NCBI GenBank assembly: GCA_002705565.1
Contig: PAHJ01000072.1
Location: 1-32,806 of the forward strand
Length of the DNA: 32,806 bases
Source of the DNA: Geminicoccus sp.
GTDB taxonomy: Bacteria; Pseudomonadota; Alphaproteobacteria; UBA7985
Reading direction: 5' to 3'
How positions within the stretch are numbered: position 1 is the first letter of the stretch; each line of letters opens with the position of its first letter. Made by a program: the position numbers and the translations under genes. The notes under the pieces were generated by a model that was not told the DNA's origin, ran no database searches, and was given only the letters and a program-made list of their open reading frames with translations. Below, in pieces: positions 6,247 through 32,104 of this stretch.

Positions 6247-7413
6247 ATGAAAATCAGTTCAGAGGAACGCGATATTATCCAGCGGATCCTGCAGCACCAC
6301 GCGCAGGGAACCACGGACATGACGCCGGAGATGATGGCAAACCCGGTCGAGAACTACGCATCTGACAAGGTTTTAGAGGCCGAGCAGCAGATCCTATTTC
6401 GAGAGTTTCCACTGATCCTCGCTCACAGCTCAGAGCTACCCGACGCCGGGTCCTTCCTCACCAACAACGATACCGGAATGCCGCTGCTGATCACCCGCAA
6501 CGATGCCGGTGAAGTTCAGGCGTTTCTGAACGTTTGTCGTCACCGGGGCGCGCGCGTGGAAGATCGTCCGTGCGGCAAGGCGCGGGCCTTTTCCTGTCCT
6601 TACCACTCGTGGACCTATGACCTTAACGGCTCTCTGCGTGGGCTGCCGGGCGCGGTCGGGTTCGAGGGATTGAAGAAGGACGAACACGGCCTGGTTCCGG
6701 TCCCGGCCTTTGAGCGCTTTGGGCTGATCTGGGTCCGGCCCACGCCTGCGGATCAGCCAATCGACATCGACGCCTGGCTCAAGCCCATGGAAGAACAGCT
6801 GAACGGCCTGGACCTGGGCTCGCACGTGATTTTTGAGAGCTGGAAACTTGACCGGGACATGAGCTGGCGCCTGGCGTTGGAAGGGTTCCAGGAATCCTAC
6901 CACTTCTGCCACGCCCATCGGACCACGGCCTGCTCCAACTACCTCGATAATCAGTCCGTATTCATCCAACACTACCCCCACGTCCGCCACGCCGTACCCT
7001 TGCCTCACGTCGTGGATTTAGCGGACCAAACCCCAGAGACATGGGACTACCGGCCCAACTTCATGACGCAAAACTACCTGTTCCCGGCGAATTTCGTGCA
7101 AGTGATGACGGACCATGTCTATGTCCACACGATCATTCCCACGGGACCGGGGACCTGCATTTTCAAATGCCAGATGCTGATCGCCGAACCGCCTAAGGAT
7201 GAGAGGGCAGAACGCTTCTGGCGGCGGAACTATGACGTTGTCAGGGCCGTGTTCAACGAGGATTTCGAGATCGGCGAGAATATCCAGAAGGGCCTGAATT
7301 CCGGTGCAAATCTCAATTTTGTCTTCGGCAAAAACGAGTGCTGCCTGCATTACGGCCAAACCGCGATCACCGACGCGCTTGAGCAGCGACTGAAGGTCCC
7401 GCTGGCTCTTTGA
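6247..7413 (+). CDS. Rieske non-heme iron oxygenase, alpha-subunit type
   Basis: The 388-residue protein has the layout of a ring-hydroxylating or N-demethylating oxygenase alpha subunit. The Rieske [2Fe-2S] site is C97-R-H99 with C117-P-Y-H120. The mononuclear iron ligands are H219 and H224 in ESYHFCHAH, with D339 in NEDFEIGENIQ as the likely third ligand. E216 sits where the electron-bridging acidic residue (often Asp) is expected. Related enzymes hydroxylate aromatics or demethylate quaternary amines such as glycine betaine, stachydrine and carnitine. Reductase and ferredoxin genes are not in the window. The start has a strong GGGGAGGAAA site. The amine-metabolising genes downstream make an N-methylated substrate plausible, but aromatic substrates fit equally with the neighbouring CoA ligase. 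Confidence 0.88.
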   Translation: MKISSEERDIIQRILQHHAQGTTDMTPEMMANPVENYASDKVLEAEQQILFREFPLILAHSSELPDAGSFLTNNDTGMPLLITRNDAGEVQAFLNVCRHRGARVEDRPCGKARAFSCPYHSWTYDLNGSLRGLPGAVGFEGLKKDEHGLVPVPAFERFGLIWVRPTPADQPIDIDAWLKPMEEQLNGLDLGSHVIFESWKLDRDMSWRLALEGFQESYHFCHAHRTTACSNYLDNQSVFIQHYPHVRHAVPLPHVVDLADQTPETWDYRPNFMTQNYLFPANFVQVMTDHVYVHTIIPTGPGTCIFKCQMLIAEPPKDERAERFWRRNYDVVRAVFNEDFEIGENIQKGLNSGANLNFVFGKNECCLHYGQTAITDALEQRLKVPLAL

Positions 7414-8460: not shown

Positions 8461-9996
8461 CTAGAGAATTATGTTGAACTGAGCGCGGATCTTGGCGTCG
8501 TGTTCGGCGGTCAGGTACTGTGGCTGGTGGGTTTCCAGCACCTCCCGCGCCTTGCGCTTGGCCCGATCCCAAGCCGTTGGCGCGCCGCTGTCGCCCCACA
8601 CCTTCGGGTCGTCACGGTCAGCAAGAGGCGGGTAGAAATAGTCCCGCTCCATGGCCGCGAGCGTCTGATCTCCACCCAGAAAATGCCCTTCGCCAAGCAC
8701 GGCCTCGCAGATGTCGTCAAAGCCCAGATTGGCTTCCGTTACCTCCGCCCCACGCAAGGTCCGGTAGGTGTGGGCGTGCATCTCGTCGTCGAGGATAAAC
8801 GCCTCGAAACTCGCCCCGAGCAAGGACGCCGTCATGCCAGAACTCTCGTAGATCAGGTTCCCCCCCGCCAACCCTGCGGCCAGCGATGTCATCCCCTTTT
8901 CCACGCCATACTGTGAATCGATGGCCTTGGCGTCCGTCATAGAACTGGCAACCCCCGAACACAGACCCAGCCAGTTGGATACCTGCGCCGACGCCGCGTT
9001 CAATAGCACCGTCTCCCCACCCCCGCCGACAAAGGCCCCGGTGCGCAAATCGATCACCAGCGGCCAGTTGGAGAACACCATGGGAAAGCCCGGCTCAATC
9101 GAGTGAACCATAACCAGCGACGCCAGCGTTTCCGCCAGCGATTGGGCCAGAAATCCGGCCATCGTTGCGGGCGCGGTGGCACCGGCCTGTGCCGCTGTAA
9201 TGTTGGAGATCGGGATGCGATGCTCGACACATTTGAAGACCACGTCGACGGCATCTTCACCATAGCGCATAGGCGAGATCACCGGGCTGATGTGCGCTTT
9301 CACAAAAGGCCGCTCAGCGAACCTGCCCGGACCGCCTGCGGCAATATCCAGCATCTCAATGATAGGGTCGACATGCTCCGCCAGGGTAAAGGACGTAGCC
9401 ACCGGCTTTGTGGTGTTTTGCAGCAGGGCGTAAACCGTGTTCACGTCCAGATCAAAGTTATCCGGCACATCAGTTGCGACGCAACAGCGGGTGAACCAGC
9501 TGACGTTTTCCAGCGTATCCTGCAACCGCGTGAAATCGTGGAGATCGCGCAGGGTTGAGGGGCGGTAGAGGCCACTATCCAGGTCCAGGGTCTGCACCGC
9601 CGCGCCGCCCGTACCAAAGTGGACCGCCTCTCCGCCAACCACGATGCTGCGAGCCGGGTCGCGACCGTGCAGAGTGAAGACTTTGGACGCCTTGTCGATA
9701 GCATCCAGCACCAACGGACGCGGCAGCAGAAACCTGCCCTTGCCATTATCAACCGCACCCACTGCCAGCAGAGTCTTTGCCAGATTGTCGGGCACTTCGC
9801 CCATGCCTAACTCTTCCAGCAGTCGAAGCGCAGTCTCGAAGATCGCTTGCAGGTCAACTTCGCTAAGCGGCTTATAAACCCCGCCGCGCTGACCGGGAGG
9901 GCAAGGGTGGATCTGGGGTTTTGCGGCGCGCAACGCCATCCGCTCTTTCCGGCCAGAGCGACGAGATTCAGGGGGAGTGTCAGGGACGTGGCTCAT
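8461..9996 (-). CDS. MttB-superfamily (trimethylamine methyltransferase-like) methyltransferase, non-pyrrolysine type
   Basis: About 511 residues match the MttB family across the length: the N-terminal basic RRSGRKERMALRAAK, PGQRGGVYKPLSEVD, LHGRDPARSIVVGG, VHFGTGGAAVQTLD, and a C-terminal MERDYFYPPLADRDDPK. Family members move a methyl group from a quaternary or tertiary amine to a corrinoid protein. The frame has no internal TAG; TAG appears only as the stop codon. This is therefore a non-pyrrolysine homologue, as in the glycine betaine methyltransferase MtgB, rather than classical trimethylamine MttB. No corrinoid-protein gene (MttC type) is visible. The ATG at 9996 is chosen over a TTG at 10059 because the basic N terminus is family-like. 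It is divergent from the FAD-GcvT gene. The substrate is not determinable here. Confidence 0.88.
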   Translation of the reverse strand: MSHVPDTPPESRRSGRKERMALRAAKPQIHPCPPGQRGGVYKPLSEVDLQAIFETALRLLEELGMGEVPDNLAKTLLAVGAVDNGKGRFLLPRPLVLDAIDKASKVFTLHGRDPARSIVVGGEAVHFGTGGAAVQTLDLDSGLYRPSTLRDLHDFTRLQDTLENVSWFTRCCVATDVPDNFDLDVNTVYALLQNTTKPVATSFTLAEHVDPIIEMLDIAAGGPGRFAERPFVKAHISPVISPMRYGEDAVDVVFKCVEHRIPISNITAAQAGATAPATMAGFLAQSLAETLASLVMVHSIEPGFPMVFSNWPLVIDLRTGAFVGGGGETVLLNAASAQVSNWLGLCSGVASSMTDAKAIDSQYGVEKGMTSLAAGLAGGNLIYESSGMTASLLGASFEAFILDDEMHAHTYRTLRGAEVTEANLGFDDICEAVLGEGHFLGGDQTLAAMERDYFYPPLADRDDPKVWGDSGAPTAWDRAKRKAREVLETHQPQYLTAEHDAKIRAQFNIIL

Positions 9997-10072
9997 GGCT
10001 TGAATCTCGCAGTTGCGGCAGCAGAAGGCTTTTCTTGGCAAAGCCGGGCGTTTCGGCAAAGCGGACTCCCTT

Positions 10073-10190: not shown

Positions 10191-12611
10191 ATGAAATCGC
10201 GGACCAAAGCCGTAGTGATCGGGGGCGGCATCGCTGGCTGCTCCACGCTGTACCATCTGACGCAGGAGGGATGGACGGATGTTGTGCTCGTGGAACGGGA
10301 TGAACTGACCAGCGGAACGACCTGGCACTCGGCGGCCCAGGTCACCAACTTCGGCATGAACCAAACGATGGTGGGGCTGAAAACCCACTCTATCAACCTT
10401 TACCAAGAACTGGCGGACGACCCGGATTACCCGATCAACTACCACCACGCTGACGGTGGCATCAGGCTCGCAAACACGCAGGCTCAGATGGACGGCTACC
10501 ATCACTTTGCCAGCATGGCCCGCGGCATGGACGTGCACTTTGAAGTCATCGACGCCGAAGAATGCGCCCGCCGTCACCCGCTGATTTCGACCGACAATTT
10601 GGTTGGTGGTCTCTGGGATCCTCTGGATGGCGACATTGACCCCGCGCAGCTGTGCCAGGCCCTGGCCCGGCGCGCGCGGAAAGCAGGCGCTGAAGTCTAT
10701 CGTCACACGCCCGTAACGGGCCTCAAGCAACACGCCGACGACACCTGGACCGTCGAGACCACCAAGGGCAACATCGATTGCGACGTGGTCATCAACGCCT
10801 GTGGCTATCGCGTGAATGAGGTGGGTGCGATGATGGGGGTGCATCATCCGGTGATGTCGATGGAACATCAGTACATGCTGACCGACACCATCCCCGACAT
10901 CGAAAATGCCGACCATCGCATGCCCCTGCTACGCTGCCCGATCAGTGATTATTATTGCCGGCAGGAGAAGAACGGCCTGCTGGTCGGTTTCTATGAGCAG
11001 GACTGCCGGACATGGGGTATGGACGGGATTGACCCGCACTTCGTCAACGCCCTTTGCCCCGATGATCTTGACCGCGTTATCGACGTACTGGAAGGCGCCT
11101 TTGCCCGCATGCCAGCGCTACAGGATGTTGGCATTCACACCGTGGTCAATGGTCCCATCACGTACACCATCGACGGCGCCCCACTGGTCGGCCAGATCCC
11201 CGGCAAGCGCAACGCCTACTGCATTATTGGCCTGCGCGCAGGCCTGGGCGAAGGGGGCGGTCACGGGTGGTTACTTGCGCAGCAGATTGTCCATGGCGAG
11301 GCCTGCTATGACACCTGGGTTCTCGACCCGCGCCGGTTCACCGAACACGGCAATGTCGAGCTGTGCGCGCTCAAGGCCATAGAGGACTATCAGAACGAAT
11401 TCCGCTTCCATTTCCCCAACGAACACCGGCCGGCAGGCCGCTACGCCAAAACCACGCCACTGACCCCAGTTTTGGAGGCGGAAGGGGCTGAATTTACCGT
11501 GGTCAATGGCTGGGAACGGGCGGAATTCTTCAAGCCTTCAGCCGACTTTCACGTCACCCACGGTTTCAAATTTGATGAGGCCCACAGCATCGTAGCGGCG
11601 GAGGTTGCAGCCGTGCAGAACGCTGTTGGCCTGACAGAAGTCAATGGCTTCAACCGCATGGAAATCAGCGGCACCGACGCGCACTCTTTCCTCGACCGCA
11701 TGAGCTGCTCCAAAATCAAGAGCACGCCCGGTCGGGTTTCGCTGGCCTATCTGTTGAACCACCACGGCATGGTCAAAGGCGAAATGACCGTCGCCAATCT
11801 GCCCGATGGCCGCATCTGGGCTGGCTCAGCAGCGGCCGCAGAGTGGCACGATCGCGACTGGTTGAACCTGCACATTCGGGCCGACGAAGACGTTAAAGTC
11901 AGCTCTCTGACCAACGATTATACCATTCTCCTGCTTGCGGGCCCCAAATCGCGGGACGTGCTGTCCGCCGTTAGTCGGGGGGACTGGTCAGCGGAGGGAT
12001 TCCCGTGGTTGTCCGTACGCGAAGCCTTCATTGGCATCGCACCAGCGGTCGTGATGTCGGTGAGTTTCTCCGGCGAACTCGCTTACGAGATCCACGTCCC
12101 CAACGCCCAACTCTACGCCGCGTACAGAGAATTGCGCGCAGCGGGCACGGCGCATGGATTGACGCTGTTTGGCCTTCGGGCAGTGGAAAGCATGCGACTG
12201 GAAAAGGGCTACCTGCATTGGAAATCCGACCTGCTCACCGAATTCGATCCCTTTGAAACCGGGTTGGGTCGATTTGTGGACCTGAACAAGCAGGAATTCG
12301 TTGGCAAAGAAGCCTTAGTGGCACGCCAGAAGGCCGGCCCAAATCGCCTGTTGGTCAGCCTAAACCTCAATACCACCGAAGCCGCCGCTCATGGTGGCTC
12401 GTCGGTCATGATCAACGATCGTGTGGTCGGCACTGTCACTTCCGGTGATTGGGGTCACCGGACGCAAATGAACCTTGCTTATGCCTTTGTAGAGCCAGAC
12501 CTGGCCACAGAAGGCACTACACTCAGTATTGATGTTTTGGGGAAGCACGTTGCTGCAACTGTGATTCAACCGGGCCCCTACGATCCGAATTACAGCCTAG
12601 TTCGAAGCTAA
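10191..12611 (+). CDS. DMGDH/sarcosine dehydrogenase-like FAD oxidoreductase fused to GcvT
   Basis: The 806-residue protein has an N-terminal DAO-type FAD domain (Rossmann motif VIGGGIAG at 9-16) with SGTTWHSAAQ, where H46 occupies the position of the covalent FAD histidine. A short bridging domain lies near 375-430. A tetrahydrofolate-binding GcvT region spans about 430-800: NGWERAEFFKP, SFSGELAYEIHVP, LRAVESMRLEKGYLHW and ETGLGRFVDLNKQEFVGKEAL. Relatives oxidise N-methyl groups of dimethylglycine or sarcosine and hand the one-carbon unit to tetrahydrofolate. Being divergent from the MttB homologue suggests a shared N-methyl catabolic pathway. The exact substrate is inferred, not shown. Confidence 0.9.
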   Translation: MKSRTKAVVIGGGIAGCSTLYHLTQEGWTDVVLVERDELTSGTTWHSAAQVTNFGMNQTMVGLKTHSINLYQELADDPDYPINYHHADGGIRLANTQAQMDGYHHFASMARGMDVHFEVIDAEECARRHPLISTDNLVGGLWDPLDGDIDPAQLCQALARRARKAGAEVYRHTPVTGLKQHADDTWTVETTKGNIDCDVVINACGYRVNEVGAMMGVHHPVMSMEHQYMLTDTIPDIENADHRMPLLRCPISDYYCRQEKNGLLVGFYEQDCRTWGMDGIDPHFVNALCPDDLDRVIDVLEGAFARMPALQDVGIHTVVNGPITYTIDGAPLVGQIPGKRNAYCIIGLRAGLGEGGGHGWLLAQQIVHGEACYDTWVLDPRRFTEHGNVELCALKAIEDYQNEFRFHFPNEHRPAGRYAKTTPLTPVLEAEGAEFTVVNGWERAEFFKPSADFHVTHGFKFDEAHSIVAAEVAAVQNAVGLTEVNGFNRMEISGTDAHSFLDRMSCSKIKSTPGRVSLAYLLNHHGMVKGEMTVANLPDGRIWAGSAAAAEWHDRDWLNLHIRADEDVKVSSLTNDYTILLLAGPKSRDVLSAVSRGDWSAEGFPWLSVREAFIGIAPAVVMSVSFSGELAYEIHVPNAQLYAAYRELRAAGTAHGLTLFGLRAVESMRLEKGYLHWKSDLLTEFDPFETGLGRFVDLNKQEFVGKEALVARQKAGPNRLLVSLNLNTTEAAAHGGSSVMINDRVVGTVTSGDWGHRTQMNLAYAFVEPDLATEGTTLSIDVLGKHVAATVIQPGPYDPNYSLVRS

Positions 12612-26005: not shown

Positions 26006-27709
26006 TTAAAGTAGTGTGAGGTAATCGGGCTTCTCGGGGGCTCCTCCTGAGACCGCTGCGGCCACGCAGTCGGCCAATCCAGCCAGACGAACATGTCGGC
26101 CGGAGAGGCCAAAGGCGTAGTGGGCGTACTTGCCGGAGTTGGTGAGAACACTCTGGGCAGACGGCGGGAAAACCGGCTCAGTAATCGAACACCAGCAGAT
26201 ATCAGGAATCACGCGCACACCGGCGCGCTCCAGCGCCGCGAGGGTCCCGTCAGTGCGCGCTTGCGCGAGGACCGAACGTCCCACGGTCACGATCATTGGC
26301 GCAGCGACGCAGGTTTGTTGCCCAAGCAGAGCGGCAAGGTTTTGGCATTCGCTAAGCGACGCATGCGGACTGCCGATGGCAACCAAATCAACAGGCAGGG
26401 TCGCCTGATTCAGCTCACCCCAGGCGTCGGCAAAGTCTGCGGCCGTCAGGACTAGAGTGTCAGTGGCTTCCGCAGCGGCCAAATGGGCTTCTGGGGTGTG
26501 CCCAGCGATGTGCAGCATCGGTGCGCCGGACGTGGTGCCGAACGCAGCACAGATCGATTTGAGATCATCTGGGCCCAGTGTCGCGTCCTCCAGGCCGCGA
26601 ACAAGCGGAATCCGGTCGGGTGAAGCGCGGCCAACCAGCCAACCCAGCAGCGCCCAGATCGACTCATCAACTCCCTTCCCCACCACCGCAGGCAGCTGAA
26701 CCTCAACGATGCGTCGCGCCCGACGGCCTTCGTCGGTGTAGACCCCCGAAACAGGCGCCCGTCCCGTCATGGCGATGAAGAGATCAAGGTAGTCAGGATG
26801 TTTGACCGTGCGAGCTGCCAAGACAGTATTGGCGTAAATCACAGCATTGGACTCAGACCAGCCAATAGCCTCACCCTGGACTGGTGGCTGATCAAGGAGA
26901 TAGGGTGCACAGGTAAAGGTCGGCTGCGCGCCCATCTTGACGTAGGCATCAGCCAGCCGACTGGCCCGGTCGCCAAAGTCGGTTGGAAGCCCCTGAGAGG
27001 GCCAGTTTTCGCGGTCCACTGATATGGCATTAATCGTTGTAGGGATGGTGACTTCTGCACCCATCGCAGCCAACTTTTCAGCGAAAATCAGGTTGGCGTC
27101 GTGGGCGAGAATGCATCCGTCGATATGCCCTCGCGTGACGTCGCGCAACGCGCTTGCACCCTGCGATGCCGCCATTTGGCACAACACCTCCATCGCAATC
27201 TGCCGCGCGGGACCGTCCTCGCCATCCAGGACTCGCCGATCTGCCTCGGTTAAGGAGAGCGAGCCGGCGTCGATCTGCCGGACAGCGACCGTTTGCGCAT
27301 CGATGGTCAGAAGGCCATCTCGAAGCGTCACTGAGTGGGCTGCGCACAGAGGTTCGTACCAGCGTTTAGTCAGCCGAAGCACCGGTACGAGGCGATCAAA
27401 CACGCGCGCGGCGACCAAAGCGCCCAGTGTCAGCGTTTCTTCATCCTCGCAAAAAACCAGCGCCGCCGGTGCTTTGCCATTGAGCGCGAGTTCCAGCAGC
27501 ACGCCACTACCACTGCAAGACCCCCGCGAAGTCGGCATGGCCAGAACCCGGCCGGACACGTCGTCGCCATGGTTGGGATGGTGCACGTCGATCACCCTCC
27601 CGGTTTGCGGATCGATCCCGCCCCAGAAACTGATCCCCGTATCACAGGCCAGGACCGGGCCTGAGGCAGAGCCTTCGACGAGTTGCAAGGCGGATGATTG
27701 GTCCTTCAT
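26006..27709 (-). CDS. Fused aconitase X family protein, probable cis-3-hydroxy-L-proline dehydratase
   Basis: About 567 residues join two aconitase X units. The N-terminal swivel (small subunit, DUF126 type) has SFWGGIDPQTGRVIDVHHP and the SRGSCSGSGVLLEL loop. The C-terminal large unit (DUF521 type) starts near LTEADRRVLDGEDG and holds a Cys in FTCAPYLLDQP, then PDICWC and TNSGKYAHYAFGL. These Cys and the NSGKYAHY motif are family hallmarks and may bind an iron-sulfur cluster. Characterised bacterial members dehydrate cis-3-hydroxy-L-proline to a pyrroline carboxylate. The ATG at 27709 has CGGAG 5-6 nt upstream; ATG 27745 and TTG 27775 are alternatives. It is divergent from the photolyase gene. 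Substrate is an inference. Confidence 0.86.
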   Translation of the reverse strand: MKDQSSALQLVEGSASGPVLACDTGISFWGGIDPQTGRVIDVHHPNHGDDVSGRVLAMPTSRGSCSGSGVLLELALNGKAPAALVFCEDEETLTLGALVAARVFDRLVPVLRLTKRWYEPLCAAHSVTLRDGLLTIDAQTVAVRQIDAGSLSLTEADRRVLDGEDGPARQIAMEVLCQMAASQGASALRDVTRGHIDGCILAHDANLIFAEKLAAMGAEVTIPTTINAISVDRENWPSQGLPTDFGDRASRLADAYVKMGAQPTFTCAPYLLDQPPVQGEAIGWSESNAVIYANTVLAARTVKHPDYLDLFIAMTGRAPVSGVYTDEGRRARRIVEVQLPAVVGKGVDESIWALLGWLVGRASPDRIPLVRGLEDATLGPDDLKSICAAFGTTSGAPMLHIAGHTPEAHLAAAEATDTLVLTAADFADAWGELNQATLPVDLVAIGSPHASLSECQNLAALLGQQTCVAAPMIVTVGRSVLAQARTDGTLAALERAGVRVIPDICWCSITEPVFPPSAQSVLTNSGKYAHYAFGLSGRHVRLAGLADCVAAAVSGGAPEKPDYLTLL

Positions 27710-27863
27710 TATCGCTCCGTGTTCGTTGTCGGCAGCAGGTCTCATTACCTTGCCTTGGACGGTGCTCCCGATCAATCACCGTCTCTGATGCACGGTGACG
27801 GAAAGCAGGTTGCGACAATAGGGCCGTTCGGCATCGCCCGAGCTGGCATTAAGTTCCCAGAAT

Positions 27864-29417
27864 ATGGATCACAAAAACACCTACCAGATCGTTTGGTTTA
27901 AACGCGACCTGCGGACTGCAGATCATCATCCACTCGCAGAAGCTGCGGCAAGGGGCCCTGTCCTACCGCTCTATATTGCCGAGCCGGAATGGTGGCAGTT
28001 ACCGGACGCGTCGGCACGGCAATGGACCTTTGTCGCTGAGAGTTTGACCGAGCTTCGTAATGATCTGGCAGAGCGGGGCCAGCCGCTGATCTGTCGGGTG
28101 GGCGATGCCGTGGATGTACTAGCGTCGCTCTTTGCCACGCACGGACGCTTTACCCTTTGGTCCCACGAAGAAACCGGTAACGCCTGGACCTTTCGGCGCG
28201 ACCAACGGATCAAAGCCTGGGCGCAAGCCCACGGCGTCACGTGGCATGAACAGCAACCCGCTGGTGTGATCCGAGGGCTGAAGCAGCGCAACGGATGGGC
28301 AAAGCGATGGGACATGTGCATGGCGCGACCGGTCAGACCGGCACCACGCGCGCTCACGCCCCTCACCGGGACACCCGAGGGAGCACTCCCGCGCGCTGAG
28401 GATTTAGGTCTCAGCCCCGACCCCTGCGCAGCGCCACAAACCGGGGGCCGCCAAGCCGGGTTGGCACAGCTGGACAGTTTTTTGACCTCACGCGGCCAAC
28501 CTTATCGCCGCGCAATGTCCAGCCCGGCCCTAGGGGCTGTTCATTGTTCACGACTGTCGCCACATCTGGCCTGGGGCACGGTATCGATGCGGGAAATCGC
28601 CCAAGCGACCTGGCAGCGAAAAATCGAGGTCAAGGCCGCGGCGACCAAGGATGGCTGGGCCGGTTCACTGTCGTCGTTCCAGGCCCGACTGCACTGGCGC
28701 GATCACTTCACGCAAAAGCTCGAAGATCAGCCCAGTGTCGAATTCCGCAACTTCCACCCAGCCTACAACGATCTTCGCCCGACGCAATCGCAGGCCACCT
28801 CAATCGACGCGGTGCGGCTGCAAGCATGGAGCCGGGGCGAGACGGGCTGGCCGTTTGTGGATGCATGCATGCGCTCCCTCAATGCGACGGGCTGGCTGAA
28901 CTTTCGCATGCGGGCGATGGTGATGGCGGTGGCGAGTTATCATCTGTGGCTCGATTGGCGGGCACCAGGCGAACATCTGGCGCGTCAGTTCACAGACTAT
29001 GAGCCCGGCATCCACTGGCCCCAGGTGCAAATGCAATCCGGCACCACGGGTATCAACACGGTGCGCATCTATAACCCCATCAAGCAGGGTCATGATCAAG
29101 ATCCGGCGGGTGAGTTTATTCGGCAGTGGGTGCCTGAGCTGGCTGACGTTCCTGCCGCCCACATTCATGAACCCTGGACGTGGGATCAGGCGTCAACTGT
29201 GCTGGACAAGACCTACCCCCACGCCATCGTCGATCACCTCTCAGCGGCGCGCTTTGCGCGGGAAAAGATATGGGCGGTGCGCGGTCAGACAGGCTTTAAA
29301 ACCAAGGCGAGCGCGATCCAAGACAAGCACGGCAGCCGCAAAGCCAACATCCCCCGCACCGGGCAAAAACCGCGTAGGAAGCCAAAATCAGACGACCAGC
29401 TGGACCTGTTGCTCTAG
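27864..29417 (+). CDS. Photolyase/cryptochrome-family flavoprotein
   Basis: The 517-residue protein has the normal photolyase order: an N-terminal alpha/beta domain ([20 protein letters not shown], about 9-28) then a helical FAD domain with [60 protein letters not shown] and [12 protein letters not shown]. This subgroup is common in proteobacteria and cyanobacteria; whether it repairs DNA or senses light is not decided here. The C terminus is basic and ends in QLDLLL. The ATG at 27864 has no clear ribosome site. The gene ends 19 bp before a convergent second photolyase-like gene. Confidence 0.88.
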
Positions 29418-29436: not shown

Positions 29437-30687
29437 TCAGAGCAAGCCCAGCTCAGCAATCACCGATGGAATTTTCTTCTTCAGTCCAAAGAAGCCGGCT
29501 TTGGCATGGGGCCAGACGGCCTGATCGTAATCGCGTGCCAGTTCCACGCACGACAGACCGTTCTCCGAAACCGCCGACAACACGGCTCGACGCGTTGGCC
29601 CCTGCGGCAGTTTGGGCGTCAGGATGCAATCCAGTCGCTGGTCCGCTGCCCAACGTGACAGCGCATCAGCGGCCTGTTCATCGACTTCAGGACGCGTACA
29701 GCTCAGGTCGAAATGGACTTCAGCGGCCTGGGCAGCTTGATCCACCGCCGCGCAACCGAAGGCATCAACCGCTGGTGCCGTGGGTTTCAGGGAGCGGGCG
29801 ATGGGTTGGTTCCAAGCGAACAGTCCGTGCAGGCGGGGGAGACCGTCGATGCGATGGACCGCACAATCCTCAACCGTCATCAGCAAGCCAACGCGCTGGC
29901 CGGCCAGATCCGGGTTGTCGAAGGACAGGGGAACGCGCGCGCCAAGATCCGGTTCAATCAACGGCACGGCGTCGATTGCAAGCTGCCCAGCGGGCTGGAA
30001 ACGGCCACCGGTGTAATCTTCGATATTGCTGGGCCGTGCCAAATAGGTCTTGCCCACGGTATGCAAACCGCCAACCCATCGCCACGAGCAGGTATTGGAT
30101 GCAGGGTCGCCATCGAGCAGATTGCGGAGAAAGAAATCCGCACCCAGTTCCCACGGAAGTTTGAGGGTAAAAATCCAGATACTCGCAAACCACATGCGCG
30201 CGTGATTATGCAAGTAGTTGGTGTGCACCAGCTCCTCAGCCCAGGCGTCAAAACAGGCAATGCCCGTCTGGCCCTGAACCGCTTCATCGTAGCGCTTCGT
30301 CAAGTTAGCATCCCGTTCGAGCGCTTGTAGCTGGCCAACCAGGTTGCTGCGGTAGCGCTTCCAGACCTCCGGCCGGTGCTCCAGCCAGCCCTTGAAGTAC
30401 CCCCGCCAAAACACTTCCTGAACGAACTTTTCCGCCGCGTTGAAACCATAGCGGACCAACACGCCTTTCAGCACGTCAGTCTCAAGCAACAAACGGTGCC
30501 TGAGCCACGGTGACAGGCCTGAAACGCCGTCGTGTTTCCCCGCGCCAAAGTCGAAATTTCGCTTCTGGGCGTACGTCTTACCCGCTAGTGGCAAAAAGGC
30601 TTCGAGCCGCTGGAACGCATGGTCATAAGTGGCTGCCGGTGCATCGGGTTCTCGGGGGCGTGGCGGGGTAAGCGCGACAGGGGTCAT
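29437..30687 (-). CDS. Photolyase-like FAD protein with C-terminal alpha/beta domain
   Basis: The 416-residue protein starts with a photolyase FAD-binding helical domain instead of the usual alpha/beta domain. About 58-230 carries LSPWLRHRLLLETDVLKGVL, EVFWRGYFKGWLEHRP, TGIACFDAWAEELVHTNYLH, NHARMWFASIWIF and DGDPASNTCSWRWVGG, which follow the order of the standard FAD domain. Residues about 262-410 look alpha/beta and end in WPHAKAGFFGLKKKIPSVI, resembling the end of a photolyase N-terminal domain. The two domains may thus be swapped in order. The ATG at 30687 has a GAGGT site 7-8 nt upstream. DNA repair or light sensing are the options. Confidence 0.82.
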   Translation of the reverse strand: MTPVALTPPRPREPDAPAATYDHAFQRLEAFLPLAGKTYAQKRNFDFGAGKHDGVSGLSPWLRHRLLLETDVLKGVLVRYGFNAAEKFVQEVFWRGYFKGWLEHRPEVWKRYRSNLVGQLQALERDANLTKRYDEAVQGQTGIACFDAWAEELVHTNYLHNHARMWFASIWIFTLKLPWELGADFFLRNLLDGDPASNTCSWRWVGGLHTVGKTYLARPSNIEDYTGGRFQPAGQLAIDAVPLIEPDLGARVPLSFDNPDLAGQRVGLLMTVEDCAVHRIDGLPRLHGLFAWNQPIARSLKPTAPAVDAFGCAAVDQAAQAAEVHFDLSCTRPEVDEQAADALSRWAADQRLDCILTPKLPQGPTRRAVLSAVSENGLSCVELARDYDQAVWPHAKAGFFGLKKKIPSVIAELGLL

Positions 30688-30780
30688 GGTTCGACCTCAA
30701 ATTGGTTTTCTACCCCTTTGACCTGGACCGCGACAGACATTGAACAAAGCGCGCCATATCACCGCATCAAACCCCGTAGC

Positions 30781-30801
30781 GCTTGCATTGAAGCTGCAAG
30801 C
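30781..30801. promoter_or_regulatory. Perfect inverted repeat upstream of the GcvT-family gene
   Basis: GCTTGCA (30781-30787) and TGCAAGC (30795-30801) form perfect 7-bp arms around a 7-nt spacer. The repeat lies 112 bp before the ATG at 30914 in the 226-bp gap between divergent genes and fits a dimeric regulator operator. Confidence 0.5.
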
Positions 30802-30913
30802 CAGCCGCAGGGGGAGAAATCCTATGATCAAAACGCGAGAAAATGTATCCCCTCCTCCCGAAAACTGCCCTAAGCTACGCCCCAATCATAGGCCTAGAGA
30901 GGAGATAAACATT

Positions 30914-32104
30914 ATGCTTGGAAGCGGTGACGGCAAAACCCGCAGTGTCGTTAGAAACCTGACTGGCTCCGGCTGGGACTTCAACATGAGCCGCCATCGG
31001 TTTCATGCGTTAGAAGCCGACATGGGTCCGAGTTACACGGTCTACAATCGCCGTTTCATGACGCTGAACTATGAGCATCAGGACGTGGTGGACGGATACT
31101 GGAAACTGCGTCAGGAAGCCGCTGTCCTGCATACGGGCGAGCTTCCTCTGGCCTTTGAGGGCCCCGACGCAGAGCGGCTGCTGGATCTGCTGTTTACCAA
31201 GGACATTACCAAGGTAAAAACCATGCGCTGTGGGTACGGCCTTGCCTGTTACCACGACGGCGGGTTGATCGTTGATGGCGTTCTGATGCGGTTGGCGGCA
31301 GATCGGTTCTGGTACGTTCAGGCCGATGGTGATTTTTACAGCTGGGCCCGCGCGCACGCGGTCGGCATGGATGTCAAAATCTCGGATCCGAAGGTTTATG
31401 TTTCACAGGTGCAGGGGCCGCGCTCGTTGGACATCCTCGCCTCAGCGAGCGCCAGCGGTAAACTGCCCGAACCCTTTGGTTACTTCGCCGTGGCCAAGGT
31501 GGATTTCGGCGGTCAGCAGGTGTTTATCACCCGAACCGGTTATACCAACGAGCTGGGCTGGGAATTCTACGTTGAACCCCATCACGACGTTGAAGCCTTG
31601 TGGGCGCATCTCGAAACGGCGGGAAAGCCCTTCGGCATGACGCTGTTTGGGCTGGATTCCATGCACATCCGGCGGATCGAAGCGGGCATTTTAAACGCCG
31701 GCACAGATTTCAACGAGACCACGACGCCCTTTGACGTGGGCCTGGGGCGGTTTGTGGACATGGACAAAGACCACTTCATCGGCAAGGAAGCCCTCGCCAC
31801 AGCACCAAAAGAACCCCGATCAACCGGCCTGAAATGCCCCACTGCCGAGCCCCTGATCCAGGGTGAAGTCATCATCGGCGGCGCGCTCGCAGGACGGGTC
31901 ACCGCGGGCGCTTTCTCACCGTTTTTGAAGCACGGTACGGGGATCGTCCTGCTGGACAAACCAGGTTACGTGGCCGGGACGCCATTGCAGGTTCGGTGCG
32001 TTGACGGCGCGCTGCATGACGGTGAATTGCATGATCTGCCCTTCTACGACGCCGAAGCTCTGATCCCACGCGGCAAAGCGGAACAGATCCCCCAACGGGC
32101 CTGA
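30914..32104 (+). CDS. GcvT-family (aminomethyltransferase / DmdA-like) tetrahydrofolate enzyme
   Basis: The 396-residue protein is a stand-alone GcvT fold. The motifs are YTVYNRRFMTLNYE near the N terminus, then GPDAERLLDLLFTKD, VSQVQGPRSLDIL, RTGYTNELGWEFYVEP, GLDSMHIRRIEAGIL and VGLGRFVDMDKDHFIGKEAL. This family includes glycine-cleavage T protein and O/S/N-demethylases that move methyl or methylene groups to tetrahydrofolate, such as DmdA and LigM. No gcvH/gcvP genes are near, so a demethylase role is more likely than glycine cleavage. The ATG at 30914 has AGGAGA about 9 nt upstream. The frame runs back to 30740, but those residues are not family-like. Confidence 0.88.
   Translation: MLGSGDGKTRSVVRNLTGSGWDFNMSRHRFHALEADMGPSYTVYNRRFMTLNYEHQDVVDGYWKLRQEAAVLHTGELPLAFEGPDAERLLDLLFTKDITKVKTMRCGYGLACYHDGGLIVDGVLMRLAADRFWYVQADGDFYSWARAHAVGMDVKISDPKVYVSQVQGPRSLDILASASASGKLPEPFGYFAVAKVDFGGQQVFITRTGYTNELGWEFYVEPHHDVEALWAHLETAGKPFGMTLFGLDSMHIRRIEAGILNAGTDFNETTTPFDVGLGRFVDMDKDHFIGKEALATAPKEPRSTGLKCPTAEPLIQGEVIIGGALAGRVTAGAFSPFLKHGTGIVLLDKPGYVAGTPLQVRCVDGALHDGELHDLPFYDAEALIPRGKAEQIPQRA

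Follow-up and report, generated by a model that had tools for sequence, protein, structure and literature searches.

A photolyase gene of Geminicoccus sp. with inverted domain order, very probably a member of the NewPHL class

Results

The gene at 29437–30687 of the window (the whole 32,806-nucleotide stretch of Geminicoccus sp. DNA analysed here) very probably encodes a photolyase of the NewPHL class. Its architecture, its residues and its wide homology all point to this class. By analogy with the characterised members, the product is most likely a cyclobutane pyrimidine dimer (CPD) photolyase with single-stranded DNA as its substrate. In the protein, the catalytic FAD domain precedes an alpha/beta domain, as the initial annotation had noticed. 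The features considered are as follows.

29437..30687, minus strand: probable NewPHL-class photolyase gene (ORF of 416 aa, FAD_binding_7 match, full-length layout of the relatives, AlphaFold2 model)
29983..30627, minus strand: N-terminal FAD/catalytic domain, residues ~21–235 (helices of the model, Z scores to photolyases, invariant residues)
29440..29904, minus strand: C-terminal alpha/beta "Z-domain", residues ~262–416 (AlphaFold2 model of the domain alone, PhrB and CryB matches, hhalign)
27864..29417, plus strand: photolyase/cryptochrome of canonical order, a separate protein (PF00875 at residues 9–131, PF03441 at residues 272–470)

The ORF starts with ATG and is 416 aa long. The open frame around it has 419 codons in all, which is too short for an N-terminal alpha/beta (antenna) domain to precede the FAD domain. 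The whole-protein AlphaFold2 model, for which an 89-sequence alignment was the input, has a mean pLDDT of 95.9 and a pTM of 0.92. It consists of helices at residues 21–225, followed by strands and helices at 266–412. All of the FAD-domain motifs that the initial annotation had placed at residues ~58–230 are present: LSPWL from residue 58, EVFWRGYF from 91, TGIACFDAWAEEL from 141, NHARMW at 161–166 and DGDPASNTCSWRW at 192–204. A further motif, WPHAKAGFFGLKKKIP, is found at 392–407. The only Pfam family above the cut-off in the protein is FAD_binding_7, at residues 88–215 with an E value of 2.6e-22. The match covers profile positions 1–126 of 203, and the FAD domain is thus shortened at its C-terminal end too. 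The full-length photolyase models of NCBIfam matched the FAD part alone, all far below the cut-off, and the sequence matches in the PDB were confined to residues ~17–245. Residues ~1–244 of the model reached Z scores of ~13–16 against photolyases and cryptochromes. Among these, 1iqr was superposed on the FAD part with a Z of 16.4 (9.4 Å rmsd, 224 residues) and 7ykn with a Z of 15.7 (2.9 Å, 210 residues). The public annotation of the gene in the relatives is only "FAD-binding domain-containing protein".

In the alignment, E91, W94, N161, R164, M165, W179, D192, N198 and W202 are invariant in 89 of 89 rows, and W204 is kept in 88. Following the established photolyase numbering and the alignment with 1owl and 1tez, we take E91, W94, N161, M165 and W204 to be the residues of the CPD pocket, N198 to be the flavin asparagine, and W202 and W179 to be the first two tryptophans of the electron chain. 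The position of the third tryptophan, in the register of the alignments with 1owl and 1tez, is occupied by Ala136, and alanine is found there in 88 of the 89 rows. A Trp dyad (W202 and W179) therefore replaces the usual triad. The NewPHL of D. shibae was described as having "a mere Trp dyad" (PMC8948257), and the flavin asparagine is conserved in NewPHL (PMC12083526). Cysteines are located at 145, 200, 275, 312, 330, 354 and 380, and, judged by spacing, no Fe-S cluster-like arrangement is found in the protein. These residues bear on the function. A protein of NewPHL architecture might instead be a cryptochrome-like photoreceptor or might repair another lesion, for example the 6-4 photoproduct, since the fold is common to cryptochromes and photolyases and the reversed-order Phr4/Phr6 relatives have been proposed as 6-4 photolyases (PMC9426592). 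However, all of the CPD-site residues are conserved across the alignment, with the single exception at W204, and the Fe-S cysteines of Phr4/Phr6 have no counterpart pattern here. Such a function is accordingly considered improbable, and CPD repair is the preferred reading.

The C-terminal domain, residues 252–416, was folded alone by AlphaFold2 with a pLDDT of 93.2. The alpha/beta-like region suspected at ~262–410 is thus a high-confidence alpha/beta fold. Its best VIA-align match is residues 2–165 of PhrB (4dja; Z 10.5, 3.6 Å, 148 residues), and this alignment is colinear from residue 14 to residue 165 of the domain. The N-terminal domains of CryB (Z 10.3, 2.4 Å, 117 residues) and of the C. 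crescentus 6-4 photolyase (Z 9.6, 3.8 Å, 149 residues) were also matched. The C-terminal stretch had been suspected to resemble the N-terminal domain of photolyases, and the comparison with canonical alpha/beta domains agrees: rows 1–6 of the ranking are all photolyase alpha/beta domains, five of them colinear over 148–149 of 165 residues. Universal stress proteins come next, at Z scores of 9.5 and below with shorter coverage, and therefore the C-terminal fold alone is not unique to photolyases. In the Foldseek search, the top match was carboxyspermidine dehydrogenase (E 8.5e-4) with a poor TM of 0.38, and the second was PhrB (E 2e-3, TM 0.58).

A profile comparison was made by hhalign between 88 C-terminal domains and 37 canonical N-terminal domains. 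About 100 columns were aligned in order with an E value of 9e-5, which became 5.8e-5 after trimming. The real score was 35.6, against 15.8 for the reversed profile and a maximum of 21.9 in 200 column shuffles. When the canonical side held 12 sequences, the shallower profile gave a weak match (E 0.0063), and the PF00875 matches of family members taken singly were weak as well (2 of 88, best E 0.011). The Pfam search did not detect PF00875 in the 416-aa protein itself. No Pfam family matches its C-terminal domain, HTH_20 appearing only at an E value of 0.014. BLH_phosphatase was matched in 7 of the 88 relatives, with a best E value of 7.9e-5.

The fused partner of an FAD-only photolyase could in principle be an unrelated Rossmann-like or universal-stress-protein-like domain, for which the top Foldseek match might speak, as might the universal stress proteins, whose Z scores come as close as 1 unit below the highest photolyase score. 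On the other hand, photolyase domains fill the first six VIA-align rows, and the profile score lies above every shuffle. Given the coverage in VIA-align and a profile score that neither the shuffles nor the reversed profile attained, the unrelated domain was rejected, and we regard it as quite improbable. By model and profile, the C-terminal domain is a divergent photolyase alpha/beta domain. It follows from the two matches that the domain order is truly inverted. The initial annotation had offered either a circular permutation or an unrelated C-terminal domain. Its inverted order stands and its unrelated domain does not, while a strict permutation is unproven, the FAD domain being truncated as well.

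A genome scan gave at least 590 confirmed matching loci. The best 80 of these at least 590 relatives are 44–70% identical to the protein with nearly full-length coverage and keep the FAD-first order. The same layout is common to the 88 aligned relatives, whose alignment with the protein has 37 invariant columns. The hosts are alpha- and gammaproteobacteria and some Actinobacteria, and the gene is present in all five other searched genomes of the window's genus. With its recurrence in these 80 top-ranking loci and 37 columns invariant over 89 rows, the inverted order goes far beyond what chance would give. Because the window is one of the 163 contigs of a fragmented, 83% complete genome, a frameshift or an assembly error in a canonical photolyase, or a false join of two genes, could be imagined. 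The order is, however, intact in the 88 aligned loci, which include cultured isolates and one complete megaplasmid. Independent assemblies of relatives thereby refute such an artefact, the probability of which is negligible.

In three genomes, an FAD-only ORF adjoins a small alpha/beta ORF. Positions are those of the respective loci.

L012, 1022–2145: FAD ORF of 244 aa and alpha/beta ORF of 131 aa
L014, 981–2199: FAD ORF of 265 aa and alpha/beta ORF of 143 aa
L146 (G038): FAD ORF directly followed by a stretch that matches the alpha/beta protein of L014

The two ORFs adjoin or overlap, and the hosts are other bacteria of the window's class. The 143-aa ORF of L014 matches PF00875 at an E value of 0.04, and the Z-domain profile reached an E value of only 0.05 against one single split alpha/beta ORF. 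The FAD domains were placed in a maximum-likelihood tree with a midpoint root and long branches flagged. Here, the NewPHL rows formed a clade with support of 100/99 and the split rows one with 99/96. Both together lie across a 100/99 branch from the canonical photolyases, the split pairs being a set separate from the NewPHL rows, yet next to them. Because such split pairs exist, a fusion of an FAD-domain gene with an alpha/beta gene is at least as likely as a strict circular permutation. The tree and the pairs fit an origin of the inverted order by two-gene fusion, with the direction unproven.

The photolyase/cryptochrome gene at 27864–29417 (plus strand) and the NewPHL gene converge, with 19 bp between their ends. 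Its orthologue adjoins the NewPHL gene in at least 16 of 88 distinct loci, a count that is a lower bound because some flanks are cut. Convergent pairs occur in three loci of the genus-level group to which the window belongs and in one other locus; elsewhere the genes are in tandem, and the spacing is mostly 13–340 bp. The neighbour is divergent, with an end branch of 3.11 in the FAD-domain tree. The NNGGWQW motif of E. coli-type photolyases is replaced in it by other residues, so that the usual CPD-site tryptophan and flavin asparagine may be absent. Divergent from it lies 26006–27775, by eye resembling an aconitase X/DUF521 protein. Further along the window, 10191–12611 and 30740–32104 resemble by eye dimethylglycine dehydrogenase/GcvT-type aminomethyltransferase proteins, suggesting a possible catabolism of methylated amines. 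The ORF 8461–10059 resembles by eye a trimethylamine methyltransferase (MttB-like) and is near a Rieske-type oxygenase ORF at 6247–7413.

Discussion

The inverted order has already been published and is widespread in bacteria. NewPHLs "exhibit an inverted domain topology" (PMC13274461). Phr7, which equals NewPHL, has its FAD domain at the N-terminus and its Z-domain at the C-terminus, and is a CPD photolyase on single-stranded DNA (PMC9426592). A reversed order was also reported for Phr4/Phr5 and Phr6 of the picocyanobacteria Synechococcus and Cyanobium, whose FAD domains are closest to that of Phr7; Phr4 and Phr6 have proposed Fe-S cysteines, and Phr4/Phr5 are two genes (PMC9426592). Therefore, the expectation that a permuted photolyase would be unusual does not hold. 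The order is a published hallmark of NewPHL, Phr4/5, Phr6 and Phr7 (PMC9426592, PMC13274461), and the homologue search, with the same order in 88 relatives, shows a well-known architecture.

The protein was compared with the known classes. With NewPHL (Phr7; Emmerich et al. 2020, PMID 33270891; characterised members D. shibae A8LJA9 and M. mesophilicum M7YZC8) it shares the N-terminal FAD domain, the C-terminal Z-domain, the Trp dyad, the flavin asparagine and the alphaproteobacterial distribution, and no difference was seen among the features compared. It also has no N-terminal antenna and, by spacing, no Fe-S cysteines, like the class. With Phr4/Phr6 it shares the reversed order, whereas their Fe-S cysteine pattern is, by spacing, without counterpart. 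Phr4/Phr5 are encoded by two genes and the present protein by one; the split pairs described above resemble Phr4/Phr5. The short photolyase-like (SPL) group of Xu et al. 2021 (PMID 34175934) is described in PMC9649867 and PMC9178010, and NewPHL and SPL have been treated as one group (PMC13274461). Both SPL and the present protein are without an N-terminal alpha/beta domain. However, the name SPL stresses the absence of this domain, and here a divergent one is C-terminal. The fold of the FAD domain and the CPD-site residues are shared with the class I/III CPD photolyases (1owl, 1dnp, 4u63). In contrast, these have an N-terminal alpha/beta antenna, a full-length FAD domain and a Trp triad, and the protein differs in all three. 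Its order is the reverse of their canonical alpha/beta-then-FAD layout. The layout of FeS-BCP (Fe-S prokaryotic 6-4 photolyase), with an N-terminal alpha/beta domain of the PhrB type, is not found either, the order being reversed and the N-terminal domain absent. The gene is thus very probably an ordinary further member of the NewPHL class.

A mechanism can be predicted from the characterised members. At first, the protein would bind FAD. Second, blue light and the Trp dyad would reduce FAD to FADH-. Third, a cyclobutane pyrimidine dimer would be flipped from single-stranded DNA into the pocket and split through electron transfer. In the NewPHL studied by Emmerich et al. 2020, the C-terminal domain reportedly seals the FAD site from solvent. 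The Z-domain would, in the same way, complete and shield the shortened FAD pocket rather than harvest light. The inverted order itself probably arose when an FAD-domain gene was fused with a downstream alpha/beta gene. A more speculative proposal, which we hold to be unlikely, takes the Z-domain as the relic of a once-separate, later fused alpha/beta subunit and, at the same time, the NewPHL and the adjoining divergent photolyase/cryptochrome as one photoreactivation unit, because the two genes are found side by side, either convergent or in tandem, in several lineages.

The inversion of the domain order is genuine and marks a known class that has been discussed as informative for the evolution of photolyases. 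As a by-product, this analysis offers a direct demonstration, by structure model and profile, that the C-terminal Z-domain is a divergent photolyase alpha/beta domain. The two-gene relatives suggest how a fusion could have given the inverted order.
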